Assembly (NCBI GenBank): GCA_025357635.1
Contig: JANXOV010000099.1
Location: forward strand, 21,987 to 85,986
Length of the DNA stretch: 64,000 nt
Source: Pseudomonadota bacterium
GTDB taxonomy: Bacteria > Pseudomonadota > Gammaproteobacteria > Steroidobacterales > Steroidobacteraceae
Reading direction: 5' to 3'
This document shows, piece after piece, positions 2,407 to 19,488 of the stretch. The notes beneath the pieces were generated by a model. It made no database searches, was not told the DNA's origin, and saw only the letters and a program-made list of their open reading frames with translations. How positions within the stretch are numbered: position 1 is the first letter of the stretch; every line of letters begins with the position of its first letter. Both the position numbers and the translations under genes were made by a program.

Positions 2407-3897
2407 CTAGTGCGCGGGCATTCCGATATGGCGGCCGGCCTGGTTGGGAGCCGGTAGCGCGGCATGCGTTGCCCGCAGTGCTTCCAGCTTGGAAAATACT
2501 TCCGGCCGTATCAGCGCCGCCTTGTGCGCATGCGTATCGACGTGCAGATGCATTTGTTCACAGGCTGCCACCAGCTCATTGTCGCGCTCGCGCAGCAGCC
2601 GGTGGAAAACGTGCAACCGCTTCTGGTCCAAACCCAGCATCTGGGTGGTGACGTAGATCGGCTCGTTCACGCGTGCCTCGGTCAGGTAGGAAATGTGGCT
2701 CTCCACCGTATAGAACATGTGTCCCGAGGCGCGGTAGTCCTCATCGACGCCGATGCGCCGGTACATCGCGTCCATGGCATCGCCAAAGACTTGCATATAG
2801 CGCGAGTCGGTCATATGGCCGTTGTAGTCGATCCACTCCGGACGCACTTCCGTCGACACCAGCCGCAGCGGCCCATCGAGCTCCGGTTTCACCCCATCAT
2901 AGGTGTGTTCCAAGGAGGCATCGGTATACAGCCGCGTCTCCAGATTCTTCAAGGTCGCGCCTGCGCCGATATTGAAGTTGCGCAGCACCTGCTGGATGGC
3001 GACCAGGTAATCGTCGCGCAAACGTTCAATTTCACGGATGGAACGTCCCGCGGCTTGCGCCTGCGTGCCCTCGACCATGCGGTCGATGAGCTGCTCACTC
3101 AGTTCCGGCGCCTCGAGCTTGGTCCACGGCCACTTCAGGCAGGGACCGAACTGCGCCAACATGTGGCGCATGCCGGATTCACCGCCGGCCAGATGGTAGA
3201 TGAGGTTCGTGCCCATCGCGGCCCAGCGCAACCCGGGGCCGTAGATGATGGAGTCATCGAGTTCGCCGGTGGTGGCGACGCCGTCATTGACCATGTGCAG
3301 AATTTCGCGCCAAAGCGCTTCCTGCAACCGGTCAGTCAGGTGGCCGGGGACTTCGCGGCGCACGTGCAGCGCATGCATGCCAATGTAGGTGAAAAAGCGC
3401 TTGGACGCTTCGATGGTCGCGGCGCTGGTCTTTTCACCGCCTACGATTTCCACCAAGGGCAGCAGGTACACCGGGTTGAACGGATGCGCCACGCAAAAAC
3501 GCTCGGGTGCAACCATGTCGCGCTGCAGATCGGTGGGCATGAGTCCGGAGGTACTGGAGGCGATGATGACGTCGGCCGGCGCATGCCGGCTGACCTGGGC
3601 GAGAATCCGCTGTTTGAGAGGCAGCTGCTCGGGAATGTTTTCCTGAATGAAGTCAGCCTGCGCCGCCATGGCATCCAGGTCGGTGGTGAAGGTGAGCTTG
3701 CCCTTCGGCGGCAGCGGCGCGAACGTCAACCGCGCCAGTGCGGGCTCTGCGTTGGCCACTGCGCCGCGGATCCACTCCTGCATCTCGGGTTTCACGTCCG
3801 CCGCGATCACGTCGATGCCGAAGTGCAGCGCCCGGGCGGCCCAGCCGCCGCCGATGACACCGGTTCCCAACAGCCCAAGCGTCTTCACTTCTCGCAT
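2407..3897 (-). CDS. lcdH: L-carnitine dehydrogenase / betainyl-CoA thioesterase fusion
   Basis: A 496-residue two-domain protein. Residues 1 to about 325 form a 3-hydroxyacyl-CoA dehydrogenase-type NAD enzyme with the Rossmann motif LLGTGVIGGGWAA and the catalytic HPFNPVYLLPLVEIVGG region. Residues about 340 to 480 form a hot-dog thioesterase starting TEVRPEWIDYNGHM. This fusion matches the known bifunctional carnitine dehydrogenase/betainyl-CoA thioesterase architecture; some bacteria encode the two activities separately (cdhA, cdhB). The dehydrogenase would oxidise L-carnitine to 3-dehydrocarnitine, and the thioesterase would release glycine betaine from betainyl-CoA. The BKACE-type dehydrocarnitine-cleaving enzyme (CdhC) that normally links the two steps is not in the window. 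It heads an operon with a TetR and an acyl-CoA dehydrogenase. Confidence 0.88.
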   Translation of the reverse strand: MREVKTLGLLGTGVIGGGWAARALHFGIDVIAADVKPEMQEWIRGAVANAEPALARLTFAPLPPKGKLTFTTDLDAMAAQADFIQENIPEQLPLKQRILAQVSRHAPADVIIASSTSGLMPTDLQRDMVAPERFCVAHPFNPVYLLPLVEIVGGEKTSAATIEASKRFFTYIGMHALHVRREVPGHLTDRLQEALWREILHMVNDGVATTGELDDSIIYGPGLRWAAMGTNLIYHLAGGESGMRHMLAQFGPCLKWPWTKLEAPELSEQLIDRMVEGTQAQAAGRSIREIERLRDDYLVAIQQVLRNFNIGAGATLKNLETRLYTDASLEHTYDGVKPELDGPLRLVSTEVRPEWIDYNGHMTDSRYMQVFGDAMDAMYRRIGVDEDYRASGHMFYTVESHISYLTEARVNEPIYVTTQMLGLDQKRLHVFHRLLRERDNELVAACEQMHLHVDTHAHKAALIRPEVFSKLEALRATHAALPAPNQAGRHIGMPAH

Positions 3898-5121: not shown

Positions 5122-6267
5122 TCAGGATTGCAACAGCACGGCCCCGTTGGCGTGCCAGCTCAAATATACCTCATCGCTCCAATCGATCTGCAGTTCCGAT
5201 TCGCGGCGCTCATTCTGCGCGAAAACCGTCACCAGTTTGCCGCTTTCCGTCTTGATCCGGTACGTGGAACGATTGCCCAGATAGCCCAACTCCCATACCA
5301 CCCCTTTCAGGCGATTGATGCGCGGATCTTCCGGCGGCAGCTTGCTCAGCCGGATTTTTTCCGGCCGCAGGGCCACCCATACGCGCTGCGCCACCGAAAA
5401 ACGGCCCTGATCATCGACGAAGAGATCGCCGCCGGTTTCTGCGCAGCGAACCGTTATGAGACCTGGCTCGCAGGCGCTGATCTGACCTTCGAAAAGATTG
5501 GCCGTGCCGATGAAATCGGCGACGAAGCGGCTTTGCGGAAACTCGTAGATGCGCGCCGGCGTGTCCACCTGCACGGTCTGTCCGCGGTCCATCACCGCGA
5601 TGCGCGTGGACAAGGCCATCGCCTCGTCCTGATCGTGAGTCACGAACACGAAGGTGATGCCGACCTTGTACTGAATGTTCATCAGCTCGAACTGCGTCTG
5701 TTCGCGCAGCTTCTTGTCCAGCGCGCTCAACGGCTCATCCAGCAGCAGAACTTTCGGACGGCGGATCAAGGCGCGCGCCAGCGCCACGCGCTGCCGCTGC
5801 CCGCCCGAGAGCTGATGCGGCTTGCGGGCGCCCAGGGCGCTCAATTGCACCATGTCCAGGGCCTCCCGGATCTGCGCAAGCTTGGTCTGCTTCGGCAGCG
5901 GCAGCCGGCGCAGCCCGTAGCCGACGTTTTGCTCCACGCTCATATGCGGGAACAAGGCGTATGACTGGAACATCATGTTCACCGGGCGTTCATGCGGAGG
6001 CACATCGGTCATATCGACGCCGTCGATGAAAATGCGGCCCGCACTGGGGCGGGTGAACCCCGCCAGCATGCGCAACAGCGTGGTTTTGCCGCAGCCTGAG
6101 GCACCCACCAGCGCGAACATCTCGCCCTTGTAGATCTTCAGATTGACATTGTCGACGGCGGCAAATCCGCCGAAGCTCTTGCTCACGCCCTCGATCACGA
6201 TCTGGGGCGAGCTTTGCGGGTCCAGCCAGGGACGATCCGTCACCGATTTGAGCTGGGAGGCGATCAC
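5122..6267 (-). CDS. potA: ABC transporter ATPase, spermidine/putrescine type (PotA-like)
   Basis: ATP-binding subunit of a polyamine-type importer. It has Walker A GASGCGKT, signature LSGGQRQRVALARAL and Walker B VLLLDEPLSALD, followed by a C-terminal TOBE-like regulatory region. The longest ORF starts at 6321 but would overlap the upstream gcvT-like gene by 44 bases with an arginine-rich non-family N-terminus. The GTG at 6267, 10 bases past that gene's stop, gives a typical PotA N-terminus (…DRPWLDPQ…) and is preferred, although the ribosome site is weak. The matching PotB, PotC and PotD genes lie 10-13 kb away at 15.9-19.5 kb, flanking the same gene set. They probably form one transporter for the amine degraded by this cluster. 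Confidence 0.88.
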   Translation of the reverse strand: MIASQLKSVTDRPWLDPQSSPQIVIEGVSKSFGGFAAVDNVNLKIYKGEMFALVGASGCGKTTLLRMLAGFTRPSAGRIFIDGVDMTDVPPHERPVNMMFQSYALFPHMSVEQNVGYGLRRLPLPKQTKLAQIREALDMVQLSALGARKPHQLSGGQRQRVALARALIRRPKVLLLDEPLSALDKKLREQTQFELMNIQYKVGITFVFVTHDQDEAMALSTRIAVMDRGQTVQVDTPARIYEFPQSRFVADFIGTANLFEGQISACEPGLITVRCAETGGDLFVDDQGRFSVAQRVWVALRPEKIRLSKLPPEDPRINRLKGVVWELGYLGNRSTYRIKTESGKLVTVFAQNERRESELQIDWSDEVYLSWHANGAVLLQS

Positions 6268-6277
6268 CTGTGAAGGT

Positions 6278-7486
6278 TCAGCAATCGGCCGGCGGCGTCG
6301 CGCGCCGGCGCGCCGGCGCAAAGAAGGGCTTTTCGACCACCCGGGCCTGCACCATTCTTCGTTCCCAAACCAGTTCGCGATTCAAGTAGATCTCCGTCCA
6401 CAGAGAGGTGCCAAGCCGGAAGTACGGCGCCTCGACCATAGCAAGCGCGATGTTGCGCTTGCAAGTAGGCGACCAGATGGCCGAGGTTACGCTGCCGATT
6501 TCCCGGTTGCCCGCCTTGTCCAGGTACAACAGCGAGTTAACCGCCGGCTTGTTGCCGTCGATGTCCAAACCCACCAGCTGCCGGGCGAGACCGCGCCGCT
6601 GTTCCTGCAGCAATGCACGACGTCCATTGAAGTGCCCCTTATTGAAATCCACCAGCCAGCTTAAGCCCAGCTCCAGCGGCGAACGGTCCCTGCCCAGGCG
6701 AATGGTGTGTTCGCTGGAGACGAAGTCGACATTCGGACTTAAGAAGCCCGCTTCGATGCGCGCGATGTTCAGCGCCTGCGACCCGATGGCCCGGATGCCG
6801 CGGCTATTGCCGGCCTGCATCAACCGGTCCCAGATCTGCTCCGCATGCTGCGGGTCCATCCACAATTCATAGCCCAGATCGCCGGTAAAGCCGGTTCGCG
6901 AGGCCATGATGTTCATGCCCTCGACGGTGAAATGGCGCGTTTCGAAAGGCTTGATCAGCTCGATACCCTGAAGCCCGAACGCTTTGAGTGTGGCGCAGGA
7001 TGTCGGTCCCTGAACCGCGAGCGCGGCAATCTGCTCGGTGACCTCGGACAGCTCAACGTCAAAACCGACCGCCGACTCGAGCAGCCAGTCGATCTGCCGC
7101 TGCGCCGTGCACAGACGAAACTCCTGCCGGCCGAGACGAAAAACGGTGCCGTCGTCGATGATGTGGCCCGCATCGTTGCACCAGACGCAATACATGACCC
7201 GGTCCTGCTTGAGCTTGCCGATGTCGCGCGTCACCAGACGGTTCAAGTAACTTTCCGCGTCCACCCCGGTGATGCGGTATTTGACCATGGGCGTCAGGTC
7301 GAACAGCGTCGTGGCATTGCGTATCGCAAAGTATTCCTGGTCCGCGGTCGTGAACACATCGACCGTGGTGTAACCGGCCCAGGGAATGAAGGAGTCAACC
7401 TGTGACAGCTCACGCGCGCGCTCGTGAAACGGCGTCTTGAGCAGCGGCTGTTTGAAATGCGTCAGGCTCGATACGGCGTCGACCAT
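6278..7486 (-). CDS. GcvT-like aminomethyltransferase family protein (folate-linked demethylase candidate)
   Basis: A 402-residue member of the GcvT/YgfZ/dimethylglycine-oxidase tetrahydrofolate-binding family, with family blocks such as NRLVTRDIGKLK, GFTGDLGYELWMD and a C-terminal beta domain. True GcvT is normally encoded with gcvH and gcvP, which are absent. Here it stands one base downstream of a FAD oxidoreductase gene, in an operon with a second one. In dimethylglycine and sarcosine dehydrogenases a FAD domain is fused to such a domain and hands the N-methyl carbon to folate. An N-demethylation role in two-piece form is a plausible inference. DmdA-type demethylase or a true glycine-cleavage role are alternatives. 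Confidence 0.78.
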   Translation of the reverse strand: MVDAVSSLTHFKQPLLKTPFHERARELSQVDSFIPWAGYTTVDVFTTADQEYFAIRNATTLFDLTPMVKYRITGVDAESYLNRLVTRDIGKLKQDRVMYCVWCNDAGHIIDDGTVFRLGRQEFRLCTAQRQIDWLLESAVGFDVELSEVTEQIAALAVQGPTSCATLKAFGLQGIELIKPFETRHFTVEGMNIMASRTGFTGDLGYELWMDPQHAEQIWDRLMQAGNSRGIRAIGSQALNIARIEAGFLSPNVDFVSSEHTIRLGRDRSPLELGLSWLVDFNKGHFNGRRALLQEQRRGLARQLVGLDIDGNKPAVNSLLYLDKAGNREIGSVTSAIWSPTCKRNIALAMVEAPYFRLGTSLWTEIYLNRELVWERRMVQARVVEKPFFAPARRRATPPADC

Positions 7487-7487
7487 G

Positions 7488-9041
7488 TCAGTTCATCCCG
7501 ATGATTCGCCGTGCGGCATTGCGGCCCGGCAGGCCTGTGACGCCGCCGCCCGGATGTGAACCCGCTCCGCAAAGGAACAAGCCAGGCAAGGGTGTGGCGT
7601 ACTGAGCCGCACCGGGAACCGGGCGTACCATGAAGAATTGATCGAAGGCAAACTCGGCATGATGCCAATGCCCGCCGCTGATCTTGAAATCCCGCTCGAT
7701 GTCGACCGGCGTCACCAGTTCGCTGGCAAGGACGCTTGTGCTCAGACCCGGTGCGAACGTCTCGATGCGCCGCACGGCAATGTCGAGAAATTTCTGCCGT
7801 GCCGCATCCCAGCCGCCTTTAAGGTCGTACGGCGCGTACTGCACGATCGCCGACAATACATGGCTGCCCGTCGGCGCCAGCGTCGCATCATCGATGCTGG
7901 GCACGCTGATCTCCAGCACCGGCTCTGAGGAATACTCGCCGTACTTGGAGTGGTTGTAGGCGCGCTCGATGTGATCCAGCGACGGCGCGATCAGCAAGCG
8001 GCCACGCAACTGCTGCGTCGAAACCCCGCGAAATGCGGGCAGCTCCTTCAAGGCAAGATGCAACTTGGCTGTCAGTCCTTTGCCGCGCAAATGCCTGACG
8101 CTGCGCACGAAGCCGGTGTCCAGATGGCGCGTTCCCAGCAGACCCAGCAGGGTGGATTTTGGATCCGCGCTGGAAATGATTGTGCGAGCGCGAATATGCT
8201 CGTCGCCAGCCAGCACCACGCCTGTCGCGCGATCGGACTCCACGACGATGCGGCTGACCGTGGCGTTCACGCGTATGTGCGCACCGGCCGCGCGCGCGCT
8301 GGCGGCCAGCGCTTCGCACACCGCGCCCATGCCCCCCTGTGCCGCGGTGATTTCATTGTGAGCCGCGCCTTCGCAGGCCATGCGATACAGGAGTGAGAGC
8401 ACGGTGCCCGGCGTGCGCGGACCGTAGTTGGTGCCCAGCGTGGCATCCAGGCCCAGCGCGCCCTTCAGCTCGGCGGTTTCGAAATGCTCTTCGAGCAGGT
8501 CGTAGACGTTCATGCCGCCGATACGCAGCAGTTCGCGCATATCGCGCCGCCCCAGCTTGCGCAGCTTCCAACCCAGCCGCAGCAGCGACAGCTTGTCCTT
8601 CAGTTCATTCGTGCCCAGGCGCGGCGGCGGTGCATCCAGCGCGGACATGAGAACGGCGGCGAACTTGCGCATTTGTGCGGTGTAGGCTTGAAAACCCGCC
8701 GCATCACGAATCGACACAGCCGACAGGCCCGCGGCATCCAGCGTAAACGGCGACTGACTCTCGCGAAGCGCGGTGGTGGACAATCCCCGAGACGCCAGTT
8801 TCAGTCCATGCCCGGCCAGATTCAGCTCACTCACGATGTCCGCCGGCATCAGATGCAGCAGATGCGCGCACGCGGACACCTTGAAACCCGGCGTGAATTC
8901 GCGCGTGACCGCGGCGCCGCCCACCTGTCCGGCCGCCTCCAGCACGAGCACGGATTTTCCAGCGCGCGCCAGATAGGCGGCGCACACCAGGCCATTGTGG
9001 CCCGCACCGATGACGATGCAGTCGTAGGTACCGCCGTTCAA
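7488..9041 (-). CDS. NAD(P)/FAD-dependent oxidoreductase, phytoene-desaturase-like (2)
   Basis: About 517 residues. The N-terminal dinucleotide fold reads IVIGAGHNGLVCAAYLARAG and is followed by VGGAAVTREF. The C-terminal FAD motif is PGLFLCGAGSHPGGGVTG. This is the amine-oxidase/phytoene-dehydrogenase superfamily; similar sequences are annotated only as FAD oxidoreductases. The ORF track begins at 9146, but that part overlaps the upstream gene. The TTG at 9041 sits in a TTGA start/stop overlap with the preceding oxidoreductase and gives a clean family N-terminus. Being paired with a homologue suggests a heteromeric enzyme or two consecutive oxidations. Carotenoid function is unlikely because no other crt gene is nearby. 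Confidence 0.83.
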   Translation of the reverse strand: MNGGTYDCIVIGAGHNGLVCAAYLARAGKSVLVLEAAGQVGGAAVTREFTPGFKVSACAHLLHLMPADIVSELNLAGHGLKLASRGLSTTALRESQSPFTLDAAGLSAVSIRDAAGFQAYTAQMRKFAAVLMSALDAPPPRLGTNELKDKLSLLRLGWKLRKLGRRDMRELLRIGGMNVYDLLEEHFETAELKGALGLDATLGTNYGPRTPGTVLSLLYRMACEGAAHNEITAAQGGMGAVCEALAASARAAGAHIRVNATVSRIVVESDRATGVVLAGDEHIRARTIISSADPKSTLLGLLGTRHLDTGFVRSVRHLRGKGLTAKLHLALKELPAFRGVSTQQLRGRLLIAPSLDHIERAYNHSKYGEYSSEPVLEISVPSIDDATLAPTGSHVLSAIVQYAPYDLKGGWDAARQKFLDIAVRRIETFAPGLSTSVLASELVTPVDIERDFKISGGHWHHAEFAFDQFFMVRPVPGAAQYATPLPGLFLCGAGSHPGGGVTGLPGRNAARRIIGMN

Positions 9042-10639
9042 TGCGCCGCCCGGGAACCGCGCGAAGCGTCGCGCAGAATGGCTCGTGCCGCATTGGCGCC
9101 CGGCGCTCCCATGACGCCGCCGCCCGGATGGGTGCTCGACCCGCACATATACAGCCCGCGCACCGGGCCACGGTATTGCGCGTAGCCGGGTATCGGCCGG
9201 TTGAACAGCAATTGATCCAGCGTCAGCTCGCCCTGGAAGATATTGCCCTCGGTCAGCCCGACCTCGTTCTCGATATCCCAGGGCGTGCGGATTTCCGCAT
9301 GCAGGATCAGCTTTTTGAAGTCAGGGCTGTGCTGCGCGATGGTGTCGATGACCGTGTCGCCGAACGCCTGGCGCTTGGCCGGCGTCCAATCGCCGTCGGC
9401 CAGGCGGTACGGGCAATACTGAACGAACACCGACATGTAGTGCTTGCCATTGGGCGTCATGGTCGGATCAATCTGGGTCGGAATGAGCATGTCGATGTAG
9501 GGCGCCTGCGACCAGCGTCCCGCCTTCCAATCATCGTAGGCACGCTCGACCATCTCGATGGTGTCGGTGACGTGAAGATCGCCGCGGATGCAGGGCGAAC
9601 CCGGCGGAATGGCCGGAAAACTCGGCAGGCCGTCCAGTGCGATGTTCAACTTGCCCGACGAGCCGCGGATCTTGAAGTTCTTCACCTGCCGCACGAACTC
9701 CGGCGGCAGGTCGGATTCATCCATGGTGTTGAGGAAGGTGCGGCGTACGTCCATGTTCGACACCACCATCGGCGCGAACAGTTCTTCCCCGCCCGCCAGC
9801 CGCACACCGACCGCGCGCTCGTTGCGCACCAGGATTTTCTCCACCGGCGCCGAAGCGCGGATGCTGCCACCGCTGGCTTTCAAAGACTCACCCAGCGCCT
9901 GAGTGATCGCGCCCATGCCGCCGCGCGCAAATCCCCATGCGCCCACCGTGTCATCGATGTCGCCCATGTAGTGATGCAGCAGCACGTAAGCGGACCCCGG
10001 CGAGCGCGGGCCCAGCGCCGTGCCGATGATCGAGCTGCCGGAAAAGTGCGCCTTGACGATTTCGCTCTCGAAATACTCATCCAGAAAATCCGCGGCGCTC
10101 ATGGTCCAGAAGCGCAGTGTTTCGTACATGCGCTGTTCGCCCATGTTGTGAAATCGCTTGCCCAGGTATAGCAGCTCCTGGATGTCGCGCGGCCTGAAGG
10201 AGGTCGGATCCGGCGGTTCGCGCATCAACAAGGGCTTGATGAACTTGCATTGCCGCATGACGTCGCGCGCATAGCGCTCGTAACTTTCCGCATCGCGTTT
10301 GGAATGGCGCGCGATCTCGCGGCGGAACGCATCGTGGTTGTCATACACGGCAAGGTGGCCGCCGTCGCGCATCATGGTGCAGCCGCCCTCGTAGGGTATG
10401 ATCTGCAAACCATATTTTGGCAGCTCAAGCGTCCGGATGATCTCCGGGCGCAACAGACTGCAAACGTAGGAGCAGTTCGAATAGGTGAAGTCCTTGTACA
10501 GCTGGCGGCTGACGGCCGCGCCGCCGATGTATTCGTTGCGCTCCAGCACCAGCACGTTGAGACCCGCGCGTGCAAGATAGCAGGCGGCCACAAGGCCGTT
10601 GTGCCCCGCCCCGACGATGATGGCGTCGTGCTCCTTCAA
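9038..10639 (-). CDS. NAD(P)/FAD-dependent oxidoreductase, phytoene-desaturase-like (1)
   Basis: About 533 residues with the FAD/NAD fold IIVGAGHNGLVAACYLARAG near the N-terminus and GLYMCGSSTHPGGGVMG near the C-terminus. It is a clear paralogue of the next gene. The ORF track start (10756) lies inside the upstream aminotransferase gene. The TTG at 10639 shares a TTGA overlap with that gene's stop and is the likely start. The order aminotransferase, oxidoreductase 1, oxidoreductase 2, GcvT-like protein with overlaps of four bases or gaps of one base indicates one translationally coupled operon. Amine or amino-acid oxidation is inferred; the substrate is unknown. Confidence 0.84.
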   Translation of the reverse strand: MKEHDAIIVGAGHNGLVAACYLARAGLNVLVLERNEYIGGAAVSRQLYKDFTYSNCSYVCSLLRPEIIRTLELPKYGLQIIPYEGGCTMMRDGGHLAVYDNHDAFRREIARHSKRDAESYERYARDVMRQCKFIKPLLMREPPDPTSFRPRDIQELLYLGKRFHNMGEQRMYETLRFWTMSAADFLDEYFESEIVKAHFSGSSIIGTALGPRSPGSAYVLLHHYMGDIDDTVGAWGFARGGMGAITQALGESLKASGGSIRASAPVEKILVRNERAVGVRLAGGEELFAPMVVSNMDVRRTFLNTMDESDLPPEFVRQVKNFKIRGSSGKLNIALDGLPSFPAIPPGSPCIRGDLHVTDTIEMVERAYDDWKAGRWSQAPYIDMLIPTQIDPTMTPNGKHYMSVFVQYCPYRLADGDWTPAKRQAFGDTVIDTIAQHSPDFKKLILHAEIRTPWDIENEVGLTEGNIFQGELTLDQLLFNRPIPGYAQYRGPVRGLYMCGSSTHPGGGVMGAPGANAARAILRDASRGSRAAH

Positions 10640-11967
10640 GCGGAAACTTTGTCGACTGACACGCTGCCGGACTGCAGCGTCGTGTCCACTGCGATTTCGA
10701 ATGCAGCAAGAGTGTCCTTCAGGCAGGATTCGTCGTGCGCCTCGCAGATGAACCAAGGTTCGCGTGAATCCGGTTCACACAGGATTTTTTCATCGTGCAG
10801 CACGCGCGCCATCGCGTCGTAGAACGAATAGTCGCTGCTCTTCCAGTCACGGTAATTGCGCGGCGGCTCGGCCGCGAAGTACAAGCCGCTCATGGAAGGA
10901 TGACCGACGAAACTGTGGGCGATGCCGCGCGCATTCAGCACGGCGCGCATGCCGGCGCGCAGCCGCGTGCCGTACTCTGCGATGGTCTTGAGCGCATCGG
11001 TCTCATCGAGAATTTCCAGGGTCTTTTCCGCGGCGGCCATCGACACCGCATGCGCGGTGTAGGTGCCGCCGTGCGCCACGCCGCGGCCGAGCTTGCGCAT
11101 GATGCGTTCGCGTCCCGCCAGCACCGAAATCGGATAGCCATTGCCGACCGCCTTTGCAAAGGTGCACAGGTCGGCATGGACGCCGTACAGCTCCTGCACG
11201 CCGCCGCGCGCCACGCGGAAACCCGTCTTCACCTCGTCGATCAGCAGCACCACACCATATTTGTCGCACAACTCGCGCGCCACCTTGAGGTACTCGGGTT
11301 CGGCCGCAATCCCCAGGCAATTGCCCATGATGGGCTCGATCAGCATGCACGCGAGCCGGTTCGCGTTGCGCTTGAACACCTCTTCCAACTGATTGGCGTC
11401 GTTGGCCTGCACGAAATGCGCAAAACTGCGCGTACTCACCGGCACGCCTTCACTGTAGGGCTTGATCTCCGGATCACCCACTTGCGACCACTGATCCATG
11501 GGGGTGAACCACATGGCGGCATCGAACAGACCGTGATAGCTGCCTTCGAGAATGACGTAGTCATCCTTGCCGGTGTAGGCGCGCGCCAGGCGCAGCCCCG
11601 CCATCACGGCCTCAGTGCCGGAATTGGAAAAGCGCACGAGTTCCGCCGCCGGCACCATCTTGGAAATGCGCTCGGCCACGGTCAGTTCACGCTCGGTGGA
11701 CAAGGCAAACACACCGCCCACCTTCATGCCCTCGATGGCGGCCGCGTCCACGCGTGGATCCGCGTAGCCCAGAATCGCCGGTCCGTAGCCCAGGCGGTAG
11801 TCAACGTACACGTTGTCGTCGAGATCGGTGACGCGCGCGCCGCGTCCGTGCTTCACGTAGATCGTGCGGTCTTCGCCCCAATAACGAAAATTCGATGCAA
11901 CTCCCAAGGGCAGCTTTTTGACTGCGCGCTGGAAGTGGGCATTGCTCTTGCTGAGGTCTCTGGGCAT
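10636..11967 (-). CDS. Class III PLP aminotransferase, glutamate-1-semialdehyde-aminomutase-like
   Basis: About 443 residues with class III aminotransferase features: GTEAVMAGLRLARAYTG (phosphate-binding region), LLIDEVKTGFR (the Asp contacting the PLP pyridine nitrogen) and TFAKAVGNGYPISVLAG (Schiff-base Lys). The subfamily resembles HemL but with catabolic company. The ORF track uses TTG at 11979, but ATG at 11967 is preceded by a good ribosome site (TTGGAGTGCC) and is preferred. It is the first gene of the minus-strand operon leading to the two oxidoreductases, the GcvT-like protein and PotA. It probably transaminates an omega-amine or amino acid after demethylation; this is inference. The true hemL is expected elsewhere in the genome. 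Confidence 0.84.
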   Translation of the reverse strand: MPRDLSKSNAHFQRAVKKLPLGVASNFRYWGEDRTIYVKHGRGARVTDLDDNVYVDYRLGYGPAILGYADPRVDAAAIEGMKVGGVFALSTERELTVAERISKMVPAAELVRFSNSGTEAVMAGLRLARAYTGKDDYVILEGSYHGLFDAAMWFTPMDQWSQVGDPEIKPYSEGVPVSTRSFAHFVQANDANQLEEVFKRNANRLACMLIEPIMGNCLGIAAEPEYLKVARELCDKYGVVLLIDEVKTGFRVARGGVQELYGVHADLCTFAKAVGNGYPISVLAGRERIMRKLGRGVAHGGTYTAHAVSMAAAEKTLEILDETDALKTIAEYGTRLRAGMRAVLNARGIAHSFVGHPSMSGLYFAAEPPRNYRDWKSSDYSFYDAMARVLHDEKILCEPDSREPWFICEAHDESCLKDTLAAFEIAVDTTLQSGSVSVDKVSA

Positions 11968-12185: not shown

Positions 12186-13349
12186 GTGACCAGCCTAGCC
12201 GCCGCGAAAGAAACCGCCTCCCCCATCCAAGTCCCGCATGCGCTGCCGGCGTGGGTTTACAACAATGCGGACATGACGCGACTGGAATTGCAGCGCATCC
12301 TCATGCCCACCTGGCAGATCGTGTGCCACGTGAATTCCATTCCCAAGGCCGGCGACTACGTGACGCTGGATATCGGGCCCGAAAGCGTCTTCGCCGTGCG
12401 CGATCGGGACGGCGGGATCCGCGCTTTTCACAATGTGTGCCGCCATCGCGGCGCCCGGATTCTCGATGACCAGGGAAATTGTCCCGGCGCCATCACCTGT
12501 CCGTATCACGGCTGGTCGTACAAGCATGACGGCTCGCTCATCGGCATGCCGCTGAAGGAGACATTTCCGAATCTGGACCGCTCCACCCACGGACTGCGCC
12601 CCGTGCGCGTCGAGATCGCGCTGGGGTTCGTGTTCGTCTGCCTGTCCGGCAACCCGCCCTCCGTCACCGCGATGTGGGGCGACCTGGCCAAGGAATTCGA
12701 GCCCTACCACTTCGACAAAATGGTGCCGATTGCGCCGTTTTACTTCGAGATGTGGGAGGCGGACTGGAAAGTGGCCATGGACAATTACCTGGAGTCCTAT
12801 CACGTGCCGCTGGGGCATCCGGGACTGAACCGCATGTTCACCCCGGATTTCGAGGACCAGGCATCACGGCCGGGCATCGCACGCGGCGCCAGTTGGATGC
12901 GCGACACGCCCTCCACGCGCTGGTCCGAGCGCATGTATCAGCACCTGGCGCCGCGCACGGCGACGCACCTGCCGGAGAAGCTGCGCGGCTGTTGGCGCTT
13001 CTACAGCGTCCTGCCCAACCTGGGTATCGACGTGTTTCCGGATCAGATGTCGTTCTTCCAGGTGCTGCCGCGCGGCCCGGGCAAATGCGTCATCCGCGGC
13101 GGCATTTACGGCCTGCCCGACTCCCGCCGCGAAATGAAACTGCTGCGCTTTCTGGGCAACCGCATCAACATGCAGGTGAACAGCGAAGACCGCGGTTTGT
13201 GCGCCCGCGTGCAGCGCGGACTTGCCTCCAGCAGCTATCAGCCCGGACCATTGTCCGAACTGGAAGGCTGGATGCTGGAGTTCCACAACCTGCTGCGTGA
13301 GCGGATTCCGGAAGTTCGCCTGCCAAGCGCTCCCGCGCGATTCGCCTGA
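12186..13349 (+). CDS. Rieske non-haem iron oxygenase, alpha subunit
   Basis: A 387-residue Rieske oxygenase. The [2Fe-2S] ligands lie in CRHRGAR and CPYHGWSY, about 17 residues apart. The catalytic iron site reads DNYLESYHVPLGHPGL, giving the two His ligands; the position that is usually a bridging Asp holds Glu. A bridging Glu is known in quaternary-amine Rieske enzymes such as carnitine oxygenase CntA and relatives, so N-demethylation or C-N cleavage of a methylated amine is a reasonable inference. The GTG start at 12186 follows a strong AGGGGG site. It is transcribed away from the aminotransferase operon. No dedicated ferredoxin reductase lies nearby; the only reductase gene in the window is paaE. 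Confidence 0.85.
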   Translation: MTSLAAAKETASPIQVPHALPAWVYNNADMTRLELQRILMPTWQIVCHVNSIPKAGDYVTLDIGPESVFAVRDRDGGIRAFHNVCRHRGARILDDQGNCPGAITCPYHGWSYKHDGSLIGMPLKETFPNLDRSTHGLRPVRVEIALGFVFVCLSGNPPSVTAMWGDLAKEFEPYHFDKMVPIAPFYFEMWEADWKVAMDNYLESYHVPLGHPGLNRMFTPDFEDQASRPGIARGASWMRDTPSTRWSERMYQHLAPRTATHLPEKLRGCWRFYSVLPNLGIDVFPDQMSFFQVLPRGPGKCVIRGGIYGLPDSRREMKLLRFLGNRINMQVNSEDRGLCARVQRGLASSSYQPGPLSELEGWMLEFHNLLRERIPEVRLPSAPARFA

Positions 13350-13394: not shown

Positions 13395-14894
13395 TCAGAC
13401 CAGATTGATCCAAGCAGACTTGGTCTGCGTATAGGAAATCAAGCTCTCCAGGCATTTGTCGCGACCCTGACCGGATTGTTTGTAACCGCCGAAGGGCTGA
13501 GTCATGTCACCGTGATCGAAGCAGTTCACCCAGATCACACCGGCCTCCAGGTCGCGCACGGCCTTGTGTGCCGTGCTCAGATTCTTGGTCCATACTGCCG
13601 CCGCCAATCCGTAGATGGAATCATTCGCCACGGCGATGGCCTCCTCGATGCCGTCGACTTCGATGGCCGCCGCCACAGGCCCGAAGATCTCTTCGCGTGC
13701 AATGGTCATTTGATTGGTGACCTTGGAGAAGAACGTGGGCTGGATGAATGCTCCCGGGTTGTCCGGCGTGGCGCCGCCGAATTCGAGTCTTGCGCCCTCT
13801 GATTTGCCGCGCGCCACGTAGCTCATGACGCGCGCGCGATGGCCCGCCGTGACCAGCGGCCCCAGATTGGTGGCCGGATCCAGCGGATCACCCGGTTGAT
13901 AGGCGGTGCGGCCGCGCTCGATGAATCGCGCAATGAATTCCTTGGCGATGGGCTTGTCGATAAGCAGGCGCGAGCCGGCGTTGCAGACTTCACCCATGTT
14001 GCCGTAGATGCCGTTGATGGCATAGGTCACGGCCACGTCCAGGTCAGGCAGATCGCCCAGGAAAATCTGCGGCGACTTCCCGCCGCACTCCAGGGCAACC
14101 CGCTTCATGTTGGATTGACCTGCATAAATCAGCATCTGTTTGCCGATCTCGGTGGAACCGGTAAAGGCGATTTTCATCACATCGTTGTGCAAAGCCAGCG
14201 CAGCGCCGGCCTGCTCGCCCAGCCCGTTGACCACGTTCAAGGCGCCCGGCGGGCCGCCGGCCTCGATGAACAATTGCGCCAGAACCAGCGCCGACAAGGG
14301 AGATTGTTCGGCGGGCTTCAACACCACCGTGTTGCCGGCCGCCAGCGCCGGCGCGATCTTCCACGCCGCCATCAGCAAGGGATAGTTCCACGGCACAATG
14401 CAGCCGACCACGCCCAGCGGTTCGCGCAGGATGTAGTGGAACGCATCCGAGGCCGTGGCCGTGACCGCGCCGTCGATCTTGTCGATGAGCTCGCCAAAAT
14501 AGGCGAAGTTCTGCGCCGCGGACGGGATGTCGATGGTGAGCATGTCGCGGATCGGCTTGCCCATGCAGAGCGTGTCGAGCAGCGCGAGTCTTTCCGCGTT
14601 CTTTTCCAAAAGACAGGACAAGCGGGCGAGTACCGCCATGCGCTCGCGTGGCGCCATGCGGCTCCAAGTCCGCCCGGCGAAGCAACGCTTGGCGGCGGCA
14701 ACTGCGTGATCGATGTCCGCCGCCTCGCCGGCGCTGACCTCGCACAACACAGTGGCCGTGGCCGGATTGATCACGGCGAATCGCCCGCCCTTGACCGAAT
14801 CCACGAACTCCCCGTCGATGAAATGACGCGTTTCGTACTTGAGCGTTGATGCGCGGGCGTGCCAGTCGGCGGTTTTCAGTTCCATAAGACTCAT
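13395..14894 (-). CDS. Aldehyde dehydrogenase (betaine/gamma-glutamyl-aminobutyraldehyde type)
   Basis: A 499-residue NAD(P)-dependent aldehyde dehydrogenase. It shows the cofactor region VPWNYPLLMAAWK, FTGSTEIGK, the general-base Glu in VALECGGKSPQ, the catalytic Cys in NMGEVCNAGSR, and EEIFGPV. The ORF track start (15152) adds 86 spurious residues. The ATG at 14894 has a GGAG site six bases upstream and gives the family N-terminus. It sits next to a BetI-like TetR and among amine-catabolic genes, so it likely oxidises an amino- or trimethylammonio-aldehyde. It might also oxidise phenylacetaldehyde from the aromatic amine dehydrogenase, since no dedicated phenylacetaldehyde dehydrogenase is present. 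Confidence 0.88.
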   Translation of the reverse strand: MSLMELKTADWHARASTLKYETRHFIDGEFVDSVKGGRFAVINPATATVLCEVSAGEAADIDHAVAAAKRCFAGRTWSRMAPRERMAVLARLSCLLEKNAERLALLDTLCMGKPIRDMLTIDIPSAAQNFAYFGELIDKIDGAVTATASDAFHYILREPLGVVGCIVPWNYPLLMAAWKIAPALAAGNTVVLKPAEQSPLSALVLAQLFIEAGGPPGALNVVNGLGEQAGAALALHNDVMKIAFTGSTEIGKQMLIYAGQSNMKRVALECGGKSPQIFLGDLPDLDVAVTYAINGIYGNMGEVCNAGSRLLIDKPIAKEFIARFIERGRTAYQPGDPLDPATNLGPLVTAGHRARVMSYVARGKSEGARLEFGGATPDNPGAFIQPTFFSKVTNQMTIAREEIFGPVAAAIEVDGIEEAIAVANDSIYGLAAAVWTKNLSTAHKAVRDLEAGVIWVNCFDHGDMTQPFGGYKQSGQGRDKCLESLISYTQTKSAWINLV

Positions 14895-14929
14895 GGGGCT
14901 CTCCGATGCGTGGAAATTACAGTTGTCGG

Positions 14930-15880
14930 CTAGTCTAGCGCAGCCGCCGGCGCGAGCAGAAAAATGAAGCCGTCGCGTTCGCACACCTCGACCGGCGCGC
15001 CGTCCGCGGCGGCGCCCGTCTCGCTGTCCGGCAGCCGCCGCGCGATGAGGCCCGCCGCGCCCCGCCGGATGACGGCGCGGCCGCCGCCGGCGCCGACCAA
15101 CAGCTCGCTGTCGGGCGCCGGCAATTGAGCCACGTGCCCGGCGAGCTGCCAAGTGCCCATCGAGGCCGCTGCCGAGGGCAGCGGCAGCTCACGCGACGCA
15201 GCACTTGTGCGCGCCCCATCGAAGCGCCCGGGAAACAGCGAACGCAGATAGCTCATGGCCCGGCGTTTGACCATATTGCGGTCGATCCGGGATTCGTCTT
15301 GAAAGGCAATATCCTGCCACAGCACCTCCAGTACGCCGATCAGCCCCAATGACACCGCATCCGGATCCAGCTGCGACTGGCCCGTGAGCGTGATCATGCG
15401 TCCGATGAGATCGCGCGTGAGCGCGGTAAAATTCGCATCCTTCTGGCCGCACAGGTCGAAGTATTCGGCGCGCGAACTGGCCTCGCCCCAGAATGAGTAC
15501 CAAACCGACACCTTGCGCGGACTGGCGATTTGCGGATCCAGGTACAGCTCCACCAGCGCTTTGAGCGCGGCCACCGGATCGCTGCGCAGCCGGGACACCG
15601 GAATCAGCAGCTGCTGCTCAAATTCGTCGGCGAGGAACTGCAGCGAGGCCACCAGCATGGCGGCCTTGGAATCAAAGTAAAACCGCACGATGCCGGGCGA
15701 CATCCTGGCGATGGCGGTGACCCGCTCCACGGTGGTGTTCGAGGGCCCGTGCACGTACAGGGCGGAAATACAGGCCTCGATCAGCCGCTGCCGCTGCATA
15801 TCCCGGGAAGTGCGCGGCGGCACGGCGCGCGGGGCGCGTCTTGGCGTGCTCTCGCGGGCGGTCTTCTTGCGGGCGGCCAC
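14930..15880 (-). CDS. TetR/AcrR family regulator with C-terminal extension
   Basis: A 316-residue TetR-type regulator. Residues about 25-75 form the helix-turn-helix (ARMSPGIVRFYFDSKAA). The ligand domain contains VWYSFWGEASSR, like BetI. Family members end near residue 215; here about 95 further residues (from about 222, rich in Ala, Gly and Arg) follow and match nothing I recognise. The extension could be a real extra domain or a fortuitously open GC-rich frame. The gene lies 35 bases upstream of the aldehyde dehydrogenase and diverges from potB, so it probably represses both in the absence of an amine ligand. Confidence 0.8.
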   Translation of the reverse strand: MAARKKTARESTPRRAPRAVPPRTSRDMQRQRLIEACISALYVHGPSNTTVERVTAIARMSPGIVRFYFDSKAAMLVASLQFLADEFEQQLLIPVSRLRSDPVAALKALVELYLDPQIASPRKVSVWYSFWGEASSRAEYFDLCGQKDANFTALTRDLIGRMITLTGQSQLDPDAVSLGLIGVLEVLWQDIAFQDESRIDRNMVKRRAMSYLRSLFPGRFDGARTSAASRELPLPSAAASMGTWQLAGHVAQLPAPDSELLVGAGGGRAVIRRGAAGLIARRLPDSETGAAADGAPVEVCERDGFIFLLAPAAALD

Positions 15881-15939
15881 TTTAGCGTCCCGGCATCCGG
15901 GATTGCCAAAGGCACCGGCCTCTGGTCAGATTGGCAGCA

Positions 15940-16863
15940 GTGAATCCCGCAATTCTCACCTCATCGAACGCACACCCGGGCTGGCTGCAAAGGCACAACC
16001 GCTGGCTGATCATCTTCCCACCGTTCATGTTTCTGCTCGTCTTCTTTCTGATCCCGTTCGGATTTGCGTTGATGATCAGTTTCGCGCAGACGGCAATTCA
16101 CGTGCCGCCGTACACCAGCATCGTATCCATATCGCCGGATTCGCGCATCGATTTATCACTGCACCTGGGCAACTATAAATATCTCTTCACCGACGAAGTG
16201 TATGCGATCGCCTATCTGTACTCGCTGAAGACCGCGTTCTTTTCCACGCTGATCTGCCTGGTGCTTGGATTCCCCATGGCCTATGCCATATCCCGCACCT
16301 CCAAGAGCACGCAGAACGTCCTGTTGCTGCTCATCATTCTGCCCTTTTGGACCTCCTTTCTGCTGCGTGTCTACGCGCTGGAGGGAATCATCCGCGAAAA
16401 CGGCCTCATCAATTCGGCGCTGCTATGGCTGGGGCTGATCGACCAACCGCTGAAGATCATGCGCACGAGCCTCGCGGTGTATCTGGGCATCATCTACTCC
16501 TACCTGCCCTTCATGGTGCTGCCTCTTTTCGCCACCCTGGAGAAGCTCGACCACTCGCTGCTGGAGGCGGCCGCGGACCTGGGCAGCCGCCCTTGGCGGG
16601 CGTTCGTGGATGTCACGCTGCCACTGGCCATGCCGGGCATCATCGCCGGATCCATGCTCGTCTTCATACCGGCCGTTGGCGAGTTCGTGATTCCCACACT
16701 GCTTGGCGGGCCCGACAATCTCATGATCGGGCGCGTGCTATGGGACGAGTTCTTCGGCAATCGCGACTGGCCGGTTGCCTCCGCGGTGGCCATCGTATTT
16801 CTGGTGCTGCTCGTGGGGCCGATCGCCCTGTATCAGCACTACCAGGCAAAAGAATTGGAGTGA
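15940..16863 (+). CDS. potB: ABC transporter permease, PotB-like
   Basis: Inner-membrane permease of the polyamine-type importer, about 307 residues with six predicted membrane segments. The ATPase-docking EAA loop is visible as LLEAAADLGSRPWRAFVDVTLPLAMPG. The ORF track uses TTG at 15931; the GTG at 15940 is equally possible and neither has a clear ribosome site. potC follows four bases after the stop. The partner ATPase (5.1-6.3 kb) and binding protein (18.4-19.5 kb) are encoded in the same amine-catabolic region. Confidence 0.87.
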   Translation: MNPAILTSSNAHPGWLQRHNRWLIIFPPFMFLLVFFLIPFGFALMISFAQTAIHVPPYTSIVSISPDSRIDLSLHLGNYKYLFTDEVYAIAYLYSLKTAFFSTLICLVLGFPMAYAISRTSKSTQNVLLLLIILPFWTSFLLRVYALEGIIRENGLINSALLWLGLIDQPLKIMRTSLAVYLGIIYSYLPFMVLPLFATLEKLDHSLLEAAADLGSRPWRAFVDVTLPLAMPGIIAGSMLVFIPAVGEFVIPTLLGGPDNLMIGRVLWDEFFGNRDWPVASAVAIVFLVLLVGPIALYQHYQAKELE

Positions 16864-16867
16864 GCGC

Positions 16868-17698
16868 TTGAAAGAGGGCCCGTCCGCATTTCTGATCACC
16901 GTCCTGTGCGCAGGGATCGCGATCCTGTACATCCCGATGATCGTGCTGATCGCCTACTCGTTCAATGCATCGGCGCTGGTCAGCGTCTGGGGCGGGTTCA
17001 CCACGGCCTGGTACGCAACGCTGCTGCACAATGATCAGATGCTCGATGCAGCGTGGCTGTCGCTCAAGATCGGGATCGTGGCATCGACCTGCGCCGTCGT
17101 GCTGGGCACGCTGGCTGCCATCGCGTTGGTGCGCTTCAGGACCTTCCATGGGCGGTTTCTTCTGACCAGCATGGTCAATGCGCCGCTGGTCATGCCGGAG
17201 ATCATCACCGGCATCACACAGCTCCTGCTGTTCGTGGCCATGTTCAACCTGCTCGGCTGGCCGCACCGGGGATTCACGACCATCGTGTTGTCCCACGTCG
17301 CCTTCTGCACCGCGTACGTGACCATCACCGTGCAATCGCGCCTCGCCAGCGCGGACCGCTCCTACGAAGAGGCAGCGATGGATCTGGGCGCAAGTCCGGT
17401 GCGCGCCTTCATGGACACTACACTGCCGCTCATTTCGCCGGCACTCGCATCGAGCTGGCTGCTGAGCTTCACGCTGTCGCTGGATGACCTGGTGATTTCG
17501 AGCTTCGTGTCGGGGCCCGGCGCCAGCACGCTGCCGATGGTGATATTTTCAAAGGCGAAACTGGGCATCAGTCCGGATGTGAACGCGCTTGCCAGTCTCA
17601 TCATCGGCATTGTCGGCATCTGCGTGATCGCCGCGGGCGTGCTGATGCGCCGCACCGAGCGGCAGAGACTGGCGGACGCTCAATTGGCTTCAGACTGA
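16868..17698 (+). CDS. potC: ABC transporter permease, PotC-like
   Basis: Second permease of the importer, about 276 residues with six membrane segments. Its EAA motif reads YEEAAMDLGASPVRAFMDTTLPLISP. The ORF track entry begins at 16775, inside potB. The in-frame TTG at 16868 immediately follows the potB stop and is the likely start. Its last nine bases overlap the end of the convergent HD-domain gene. It would pair with PotB to import a polyamine-like or betaine-like cation. Confidence 0.86.
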   Translation: MKEGPSAFLITVLCAGIAILYIPMIVLIAYSFNASALVSVWGGFTTAWYATLLHNDQMLDAAWLSLKIGIVASTCAVVLGTLAAIALVRFRTFHGRFLLTSMVNAPLVMPEIITGITQLLLFVAMFNLLGWPHRGFTTIVLSHVAFCTAYVTITVQSRLASADRSYEEAAMDLGASPVRAFMDTTLPLISPALASSWLLSFTLSLDDLVISSFVSGPGASTLPMVIFSKAKLGISPDVNALASLIIGIVGICVIAAGVLMRRTERQRLADAQLASD

Positions 17699-18277
17699 GA
17701 CCAGCCCGTCTTTGACATGGCGCGGATCGTATGCGGTGCGCGAAAACACGCGATGCACGGCCGGTTCGAAGGCGCTAAGCGGCAGTGTCGGGTACTTCGG
17801 ATCGAAAGACGCCTGATCCCAGTTCGCGCAAAAGCTTTCGCAGGACCGGTACCAGGGATGATCCTTGAACCGCTCGCGCGCATTGCGATCGCCACCCACG
17901 AAATGGGCGTAATAATAGGATTGGAACAGGCCGTGCTGCTCCACGATCCAGGTGACCTCGGGGCGCACGTAGGGCTTGAGGATGGCCGCCGCGATCGCAG
18001 CGTGATTGTACGTGGCGAGCAGGTCACCCACATCGTGAATCAGCGCGGCAACCACCATGTCGTCATCGGCGCCGTCATTGAGCGCGCGCGTCGCGGTCTG
18101 CAAGGAATGGGTGAGCCGGCTCACCGGATAGCCTTCCAGCGAATGATCCAGTTCGAGCATGGTGCCCAAGATTTTTTCCGGCAGATGCTGCGCGTAATCG
18201 CGCTCGGACTGATCCAGCAGCAGATAGTCCTCTTTTGTGCCGTCCTTCATTTGTAAGAAGCTTACCAACCGCTGCAT
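17690..18277 (-). CDS. HD-domain protein with PhnZ/TmpB-type diiron oxygenase ligands
   Basis: A 195-residue HD-domain protein, the same length class as PhnZ. All six metal ligands expected of HD-domain mixed-valent diiron oxygenases can be placed: His57 (HSLQ), His81-Asp82 (LIHDVGD), His92 (YNHAA), His115 (EQHG) and Asp154 (NWDQ). PhnZ and TmpB use this fold to oxidatively cleave C-P bonds of hydroxylated amino- or trimethylammonio-phosphonates; MIOX cleaves a C-C bond. Here it sits between polyamine-type permease and binding-protein genes, with a good ribosome site (GGGGAGAG). Oxidative cleavage of a hydroxylated amine substrate is inferred. An ordinary phosphohydrolase remains possible. 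Confidence 0.8.
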   Translation of the reverse strand: MQRLVSFLQMKDGTKEDYLLLDQSERDYAQHLPEKILGTMLELDHSLEGYPVSRLTHSLQTATRALNDGADDDMVVAALIHDVGDLLATYNHAAIAAAILKPYVRPEVTWIVEQHGLFQSYYYAHFVGGDRNARERFKDHPWYRSCESFCANWDQASFDPKYPTLPLSAFEPAVHRVFSRTAYDPRHVKDGLVSV

Positions 18278-18375: not shown

Positions 18376-19488
18376 TTATCGCGCAGTTTTAATCCGCGTC
18401 CAAATGCGCGTTCGGATGCGCTCGGTGGCGGAACTGACTTCACGCGTGCGATACAGCCGCGCTTCCATCTCAGGGGTTGGATACAGGCTTGGATCGTTGA
18501 GAATTTTCGGGTGAATCAGGCGATTGGCGGCAAGATTGTCGTTGCCGTATTTGATCTCATTGGTGATGTCGGCAATCACTTCGGGACGCAAGATGAAGTT
18601 CAAGAACAGGTAGGCGGCCTGCGGATGCGGCGCACCCGCTGGAATAAGCAATCCTGAAAATGTCTGATTGGCGCCCTCCTTCGGTACGGTGAACGCGATA
18701 TTCAGCGCAATGCCTGCAGCCTTGGCCCGCGACAGCGACACCGCGAAATCGCTCGACCAGGACATGGCGATGCACAACTCCTTGTTGGCCAGCCCGTTCA
18801 TGAACTCGACCGAATCGAAGGAGCGGATGTACGGCCGAACCGACAACAGCAGCTTCTGGGCCGCCAGGTAGTCCTCGCGCCGTGTGGTATTGGGATCCAG
18901 GTGAAGATAGTTGAGCGCCAGTTGCAGATTGTCTTCGGCCGAATCCAGAAAACTCACGCCGCAATCGGCGAACTTCGCGAGGATCGCCGGGTTGAAGATC
19001 ATGTCGAGGCTGTCGACCGGCGCATCGGGCATTCGCGCCTTGATCATGTCGACGTTGTACGCAAAACCGTTGATGGAATGCAGGTACGGGATGGCGTAGC
19101 GGTTGCCCGGATCGTATTCCTGCAACACCGTCAGCACCCGCGGATTGAGGTTATTCCAGCCGATGAGTTTCTTTTTGTCCAAGGGCGCGTAGACGCCGGC
19201 CTTGATTTCGCGGCTGAAATAGTTCGATGAAGCAGCGACGATGTCATAGCCGGAACCACCGGCCAGGAGCCGCGCCTCCATCGTGTCTTCGGAGTCGTAG
19301 ATGTCATAGACGACCTTGATGCCGGTCTCTTTCTCGAAGCGCGCAATCGTGCCGGTGCCGATGAAATCCGCCCAGTTGTAGATGAAGAGTTTCTTTTCCT
19401 CGCAGTGCGCACCGCCGGCTGCGAGCAGCAGGCCGATACCCAACAGCAGTCCGAGGCGCCGCGGCACGCGCGGCTTTCGTGCCTTCAA
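18376..19488 (-). CDS. potD: ABC transporter substrate-binding protein, PotD/PotF-like
   Basis: A 370-residue periplasmic binding protein with a signal peptide (MKARKPRVPRRLGLLLGIGL…, cleavage near GGAHC/E). It opens with the family sequence KKLFIYNWADFIGTGTIARFEKETGIKV and continues with MEARLLAGGSGYDIV. The start is TTG at 19488, in a TTGA overlap with the stop of the upstream M16 peptidase gene; no other start would keep the signal peptide. Cys is present near the cleavage site, so lipidation is possible but the lipobox is poor. It would deliver a cationic amine to PotABC. Confidence 0.88.
   Translation of the reverse strand: MKARKPRVPRRLGLLLGIGLLLAAGGAHCEEKKLFIYNWADFIGTGTIARFEKETGIKVVYDIYDSEDTMEARLLAGGSGYDIVAASSNYFSREIKAGVYAPLDKKKLIGWNNLNPRVLTVLQEYDPGNRYAIPYLHSINGFAYNVDMIKARMPDAPVDSLDMIFNPAILAKFADCGVSFLDSAEDNLQLALNYLHLDPNTTRREDYLAAQKLLLSVRPYIRSFDSVEFMNGLANKELCIAMSWSSDFAVSLSRAKAAGIALNIAFTVPKEGANQTFSGLLIPAGAPHPQAAYLFLNFILRPEVIADITNEIKYGNDNLAANRLIHPKILNDPSLYPTPEMEARLYRTREVSSATERIRTRIWTRIKTAR

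Follow-up and report, generated by a model that had tools for sequence, protein, structure and literature searches.

PhnZ, the (R)-2-amino-1-hydroxyethylphosphonate oxygenase (PDB 4N6W, 4MLM, 4N71), releases phosphate, and PhnY is a PhyH-type 2OG oxygenase. In myo-inositol oxygenase (MIOX, PDB 2HUO), a C-C-cleaving HD oxygenase that needs no hydroxylase partner, the HD motif is followed by a lysine (HDLGK). TmpB (PDB 6NPA) is the (R)-1-hydroxy-2-trimethylaminoethylphosphonate oxygenase, and the pairing of a hydroxylase with an HD oxygenase is known for TmpA/TmpB and for PhnY/PhnZ; the YxxE loop, the gate of PhnZ and TmpB, is absent in MIOX (PMC8177086). Four versions of the hydroxylase plus HD-oxygenase pathway, all acting on phosphonates, were counted in a 2023 review (PMC10574752), and MIOX was the only C-C-cleaving HD oxygenase named in a review of 2020 (PMC8177086).

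The window, that is, the whole 64,000-nucleotide stretch of DNA analysed here, encodes an HD-domain protein that shares its six metal ligands with PhnZ, TmpB, and MIOX. The gene and its neighbours are as follows:

2407..3897, minus strand: carnitine 3-dehydrogenase with a thioesterase domain (602 bits, cut-off 592)
5122..6321, minus strand: ABC transporter ATPase, which could serve the PotHI-type permeases
6278..7486, minus strand: GcvT-like protein (THF-dependent aminomethyltransferase/demethylase family)
7488..9146, minus strand: CrtO-like FAD oxidoreductase 1
9038..10687, minus strand: CrtO-like FAD oxidoreductase 2
10636..11967, minus strand: class III aminotransferase, GSA/GntE type
12186..13349, plus strand: Rieske oxygenase alpha subunit, nearest to GbcA (glycine betaine monooxygenase) and under its cut-off
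13395..14900, minus strand: aldehyde dehydrogenase, PuuC / betaine-aldehyde dehydrogenase type
14930..15880, minus strand: BetI-like TetR regulator whose C-terminal part is Rieske-like and truncated
15931..16863, plus strand: PotH-like ABC permease
16850..17698, plus strand: PotI-like ABC permease, convergent (tail-to-tail) with the HD gene and overlapping it by 9 bp
17690..18277, minus strand: HD-domain protein (P0001, 195 aa), predicted diiron oxygenase from its ligands, fold, and alignment (His57, His81, Asp82, His92, His115, Asp154)
18376..19488, minus strand: PotF-like periplasmic binding protein, separated by 102 bp from the HD gene downstream of it and likely on the same transcript (PotF model, 366 bits)

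The open reading frame originally predicted as an HD-domain protein is genuine and lies on the minus strand. The best reading of its product is a carboxylate counterpart of TmpA/TmpB: with a probability of about 0.5, it would be a diiron oxygenase of the HD-domain type whose substrate is a quaternary-ammonium compound with a hydroxyl group, and oxidative cleavage of a C-C bond in this substrate would leave a shorter betaine.

All six ligands lie where they had been placed by the original prediction, and they are invariant in the 81 relatives first gathered, in 165 of 165 distinct clade sequences aligned subsequently, and in the 30 PhnZ/TmpB-family sequences of the same alignment. The likeness to PhnZ over HSLQ and the stretch GAD..MV.AAL.HD.G was reproduced as well (phmmer against 4n6w, E=1.6e-5; family profile, 1.8e-9), as a local match of about residues 36-94, which include the first histidine and the HD pair; TmpB matches in the same local region (phmmer, 1.5e-3; family profile, 2.5e-7). 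The genome collection, when scanned, yielded 80 close relatives, with 53-73% identity to the protein. The H..HD..H..H..D set is a necessary, not a sufficient, sign of oxygenase chemistry, and it is no proof by itself because dinuclear HD hydrolases use the identical six-ligand pattern. The protein might accordingly be an HD-domain phosphohydrolase or phosphodiesterase of the dinuclear type (e.g., YqeK-like), and the database names of its relatives read "HD domain-containing protein" or "phosphohydrolase".

Fold and gene pairing, taken together, tell the protein apart from such hydrolases. The AlphaFold2 model, built from 58 family sequences, has a mean pLDDT of 95.2, and its Foldseek matches in the PDB at E<0.001 are ten chains, all of PhnZ or TmpB (TM 0.61-0.66), with PhnZ as the best match (E 4e-7) and TmpB alike in fold (TM about 0.65) at a structural identity of about 22%. 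MIOX is weaker, with a probability of 0.99 but an E of 0.08, a TM of 0.4-0.5, and 11% identity. The small HD hydrolases RelH, YqeK, and YfbR reach no better than E 0.16, at low TM, and together with GppA they rank far under PhnZ, TmpB, and MIOX; a few chains of Cas/tRNA-processing complexes at E 0.03-0.1 superpose very poorly (rmsd >10). By fold, the protein groups with the HD oxygenases and not among the HD phosphohydrolases, the placement that had been named as counting against the original prediction. The phosphohydrolase identity is thus disfavoured, and the two families of 2OG hydroxylases recurrently adjacent to the gene (described below) speak against it too, which leaves it improbable; oxygenase chemistry, at a predicted and presumably mixed-valent diiron site, is rated as quite probable.

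The protein is also set apart from the characterised HD oxygenases themselves. Against the models of the PhnZ/TmpB family, it scores 40.8 bits with TIGR03276 (cut-off 214.6), 30.2 with NF049941 (300), and 25.1 with NF052439 (300), and the MIOX model of Pfam (PF05153) matches only residues 44-92 at 23.1 bits, just under its gathering score of 25. In a phylogenetic tree, the protein falls outside PhnZ/TmpB, in a separate clade with 100% support and a long branch. Aligned with 30 PhnZ/TmpB-family proteins, the 165 clade members differ in most of the PhnZ-family invariants other than the ligands. For instance, the YxxE loop is present in 30 of 30 PhnZ-family sequences and absent in the protein, as it is in MIOX; Tyr24 of PhnZ is replaced by Leu47 (Leu, Phe, and others in the clade) and Glu27 by Tyr50 (Tyr or Phe). 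Similarly, His62 is replaced by Asp85 (96% of the clade), Lys108 by Gln119 (100%), and the PhnZ-family lysine near the C-terminus by Phe158, while the SxxS...QGG segment on the phosphonate side is deleted; the places of Asp85, Gln119, and Tyr50 relative to the metals are read from this alignment alone. Asp85 also stands where MIOX has the lysine after its HD motif. An extra N-terminal motif, M.DGT..DY, is a further difference from TmpB, and the same differences hold for PhnZ. Membership in PhnZ/TmpB or in MIOX was rejected on scores, residues, and tree, and the protein is placed in a sister family to PhnZ and TmpB with a predicted iron site.

His62, Lys108, and the QGG segment of PhnZ/TmpB are taken here to be phosphonate contacts, and the clade, as judged from aligned residues, has lost the phosphonate-recognition positions of that family. 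A divergent phosphonate oxygenase with PhnZ/TmpB function, as might be supposed from PhnZ and TmpB being the closest characterised relatives and from the TmpA-like partner in relatives, is very improbable in view of these losses and of the low model scores. The original statement that no phosphonate genes are nearby holds for the scanned proteins of the window cluster, and PhnJ was not found in the window genome. In addition, a canonical pair exists separately in the window genome: on contig C67 (L002, L221:7124-10121), an MFS transporter, a TmpA-like gene, and a PhnZ/TmpB-type HD gene lie in a row, and several to many genomes hold both HD families. It is therefore very probable that the substrate of the window protein is not a phosphonate. 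Orthologous triads of MFS, TmpA-like, and PhnZ/TmpB-type genes recur in related genomes.

The absence of a TmpA-like hydroxylase from the neighbourhood, as originally noted, is true of the window and fails as a family trait. In 36 of the 80 close relatives, the gene immediately upstream of HD, on the same strand and often overlapping with it, encodes a TmpA-like Fe/2OG oxygenase, much as in the TmpA/TmpB system. These partners score 313-366 bits against the TmpA model (cut-off 400), above their BBOX or TMLD scores; their nearest solved structure is TmpA (216 bits), followed by BBOX (gamma-butyrobetaine dioxygenase). They share the HTDNPYR motif with TmpA and retain the aromatic positions TNF/Y..F..LAY, which, by inference from BBOX, are presumed to form a trimethylammonium cage. 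In the tree, they differ from TmpA in forming their own clade (99%), which is distinct from the BBOX-like genes, and most of the TmpA genes that accompany PhnZ/TmpB-family genes group separately from them (100%). A second type of partner, a PhyH-type 2OG oxygenase like that of PhnZ, lies 3-44 bp upstream of the HD gene in about a dozen clade loci:

L070, L081, L093, L094, L147-L151, L155, L176, L177, L180: PhyH-type partner loci

Of the arguments from gene context for a hydroxylation step and a subsequent oxidative cleavage, this recurrent pairing with hydroxylases of two unrelated families is the strongest. Since relatives carry a TmpA-like or PhyH-type neighbour, the lack of a hydroxylase in the window is a local feature. 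A third recurrent partner, likewise immediately upstream of HD, belongs to the class II aldolase/adducin family (L196, L200, L215, L219). Apparent TmpA-HD fusions in L004, L007, and L033 were rejected, their long N-termini being out-of-frame readings of a separate TmpA-like gene.

The gene block around the HD gene of the window recurs in related genomes; in three loci of the same block (L020, L024, L027), a TmpA-like gene lies between PotF and HD, and in six other related loci, a choline-dehydrogenase-like gene precedes HD. No dedicated TmpA-like partner for the HD protein was found in the window genome, whose two members of that oxygenase family belong to the PhnZ-type pair and to a pair on contig C136 (L084, L222:7691-18255), where a TMLH-like 2OG oxygenase adjoins a threonine-aldolase-like gene. 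Nor was an unlinked partner hydroxylase found in relatives of the same locus type, where the ten TmpA-like genes opened were all in TmpA-PhnZ-type pairs. The substrate of the window protein is therefore probably either hydroxylated before its import, through the PotF-type binding protein encoded in the HD gene's apparent operon, or a product of the neighbouring Rieske oxygenase (12186..13349), a candidate source of the hydroxylated compound. Past the TMLH-like pair on contig C136, an apparent MttB-type methyltransferase and corrinoid-pathway genes were seen by eye. Within the window, the order of the block at 6278-11967 (GcvT-like, two CrtO-like FAD, and GntE-like aminotransferase genes) is kept in related loci. 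The relatives of the BetI-like TetR regulator (14930-15880) are about 550 amino acids long, with TetR fused to a degenerate Rieske/ring-hydroxylating oxygenase, and the window copy of 316 amino acids is truncated. The first CxH motif of the fusions reads CRQ or CSE, and the fusion looks like an enzyme turned sensor; it is found at the following places:

L009:8062-9714, L031:12399-14042, L047:12363-14147: TetR-Rieske fusion relatives

The amine context attributed to the locus is borne out by the closer relatives of the protein, which lie among genes for carnitine, choline, and betaine breakdown. Carnitine, choline, betaine, or GbcA-like genes were found in the flanks of 23 of 58 close-clade loci, 4 of 40 phylum-sampled loci, none of 20 PhnZ-family loci, and none of 20 random windows; these counts give a direction, not an exact enrichment, because query proteins were taken from the close clade and the loci include near-copies. 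For instance, plasmid pF045_1 of Pseudomonas aeruginosa has a row of LysR, TmpA-like, HD, choline-binding protein, choline dehydrogenase, and aldehyde dehydrogenase genes, with the choline-type binding protein over its cut-off at 458 bits. In Marinomonas and SAR11, the TmpA-like/HD pair adjoins either BBOX, carnitine dehydrogenase, and BKACE together or a homocysteine-methyltransferase-family gene, and in rhizobia-like genomes, the HD gene is flanked by BKACE on one side and carnitine dehydrogenase on the other, after which come acyl-CoA dehydrogenase, ligase, and hydratase genes.

The rhizobia-like arrangement, together with the carnitine dehydrogenase in the window cluster, speaks for another possible reaction, in which the HD oxygenase would cut a 3-hydroxy acid between C2 and C3, and not a 2-hydroxy acid between C1 and C2; the 3-hydroxy acid might be hydroxytrimethyllysine or carnitine, the latter giving glycine betaine and glycolate. 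No hydroxylase would be needed in the BKACE-HD-carnitine dehydrogenase loci, because carnitine already bears the hydroxyl group; however, the rhizobia-like operons already hold a complete dehydrogenase/BKACE route for carnitine, and hydroxytrimethyllysine as the substrate in the window genome is weakened by the TMLH-like/threonine-aldolase-like pair, which would handle it. A C2-C3 cut, the chief variant of the preferred reading, is on balance unlikely.

The window gene itself adjoins a PotF-like binding protein, which suggests a polyamine-like cation, not clearly a betaine, and this goes against a quaternary amine. The HD oxygenase could thus have a substrate outside the quaternary ammonium compounds (a hydroxylated amine, polyol, or acid), with the betaine genes adjacent for other reasons; some relatives have GMC dehydrogenase, galactonate-dehydratase-like, and HIBADH-like genes and others the class II aldolase partner, which would fit such a substrate. 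On the other hand, the choline, carnitine, and betaine genes recur in distinct lineages and in none of the controls, and the partner hydroxylases are closest to TmpA and BBOX, both with trimethylammonium substrates, so a non-quaternary substrate is considered rather unlikely. The chance that the substrate is a quaternary-ammonium compound and is cleaved at a C-C bond is put at about even. The distant clade members have unrelated neighbours, e.g., acyl-CoA genes and a cyclase, and one substrate therefore cannot cover the whole clade.

In the preferred reading of a betaine-forming oxygenase, and by analogy with PhnZ, TmpB, and MIOX, Fe1 would hold the substrate hydroxyl and Fe2 the O2 (PMC8177086). 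Hydrogen would be abstracted from the C-OH carbon and the adjacent bond cleaved, in a four-electron oxidation whose leaving group would be a carbon group (carboxylate or CH2-carboxylate) in place of phosphonate. The favoured example would be R-CH(OH)-COO- + O2 -> R-COO- + CO2/HCO3-, where R is (CH3)3N+-CH2 and the product is glycine betaine. Hydroxylated trimethylammonium compounds would be the likeliest substrates and a shortened betaine the likeliest product, the alcohol being made in many close relatives by the dedicated TmpA-like Fe/2OG enzyme. TMAEP and beta-alanine betaine are alike except that one bears a phosphonate and the other a carboxylate, and glycine betaine would result from either, a product that would fit the pF045_1 operon if its alcohol is a choline homologue. 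The original suggestion of a C-C or C-N cleavage of an amine is upheld for the C-C bond, through MIOX-type chemistry next to the C-OH carbon; C-N cleavage is less likely because a carbinolamine breaks down unaided, without an HD enzyme.

The clade occurs in SAR11, Alteromonas, Marinomonas, and rhizobia-like and soil proteobacteria. No papers on it, or on HD oxygenases with homocholine or beta-alanine betaine, were found in the open-access papers searched; the enzyme class is known, and the clade, its residue set, and its pairings appear undescribed in the open-access literature searched. It is tentatively proposed, at somewhat less than even odds, that the clade is a widespread undescribed family of HD diiron oxygenases with its own TmpA-like partner, shortening longer betaines to glycine betaine by an O2-dependent route. 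If so, it would be the first hydroxylase-oxygenase pair of this kind to act on non-phosphonates. A clade that has the same ligands but lacks the phosphonate side of the active site would bring carbon leaving groups into the range of this chemistry, and it could supply a missing aerobic step of betaine breakdown in marine and soil bacteria. Counts of phnZ from loose searches could, moreover, include non-phosphonate genes.

In two loci, distant members of the HD clade adjoin a MASE2-domain adenylate/guanylate cyclase (L191:3100-5204, L194:9752-11866). The MAG contigs of L043, L049, and L050, labelled Planktophila, Janthinobacterium, and "proteobacterium", have the same gene order around the HD gene, and at least the Planktophila label is probably a binning error.
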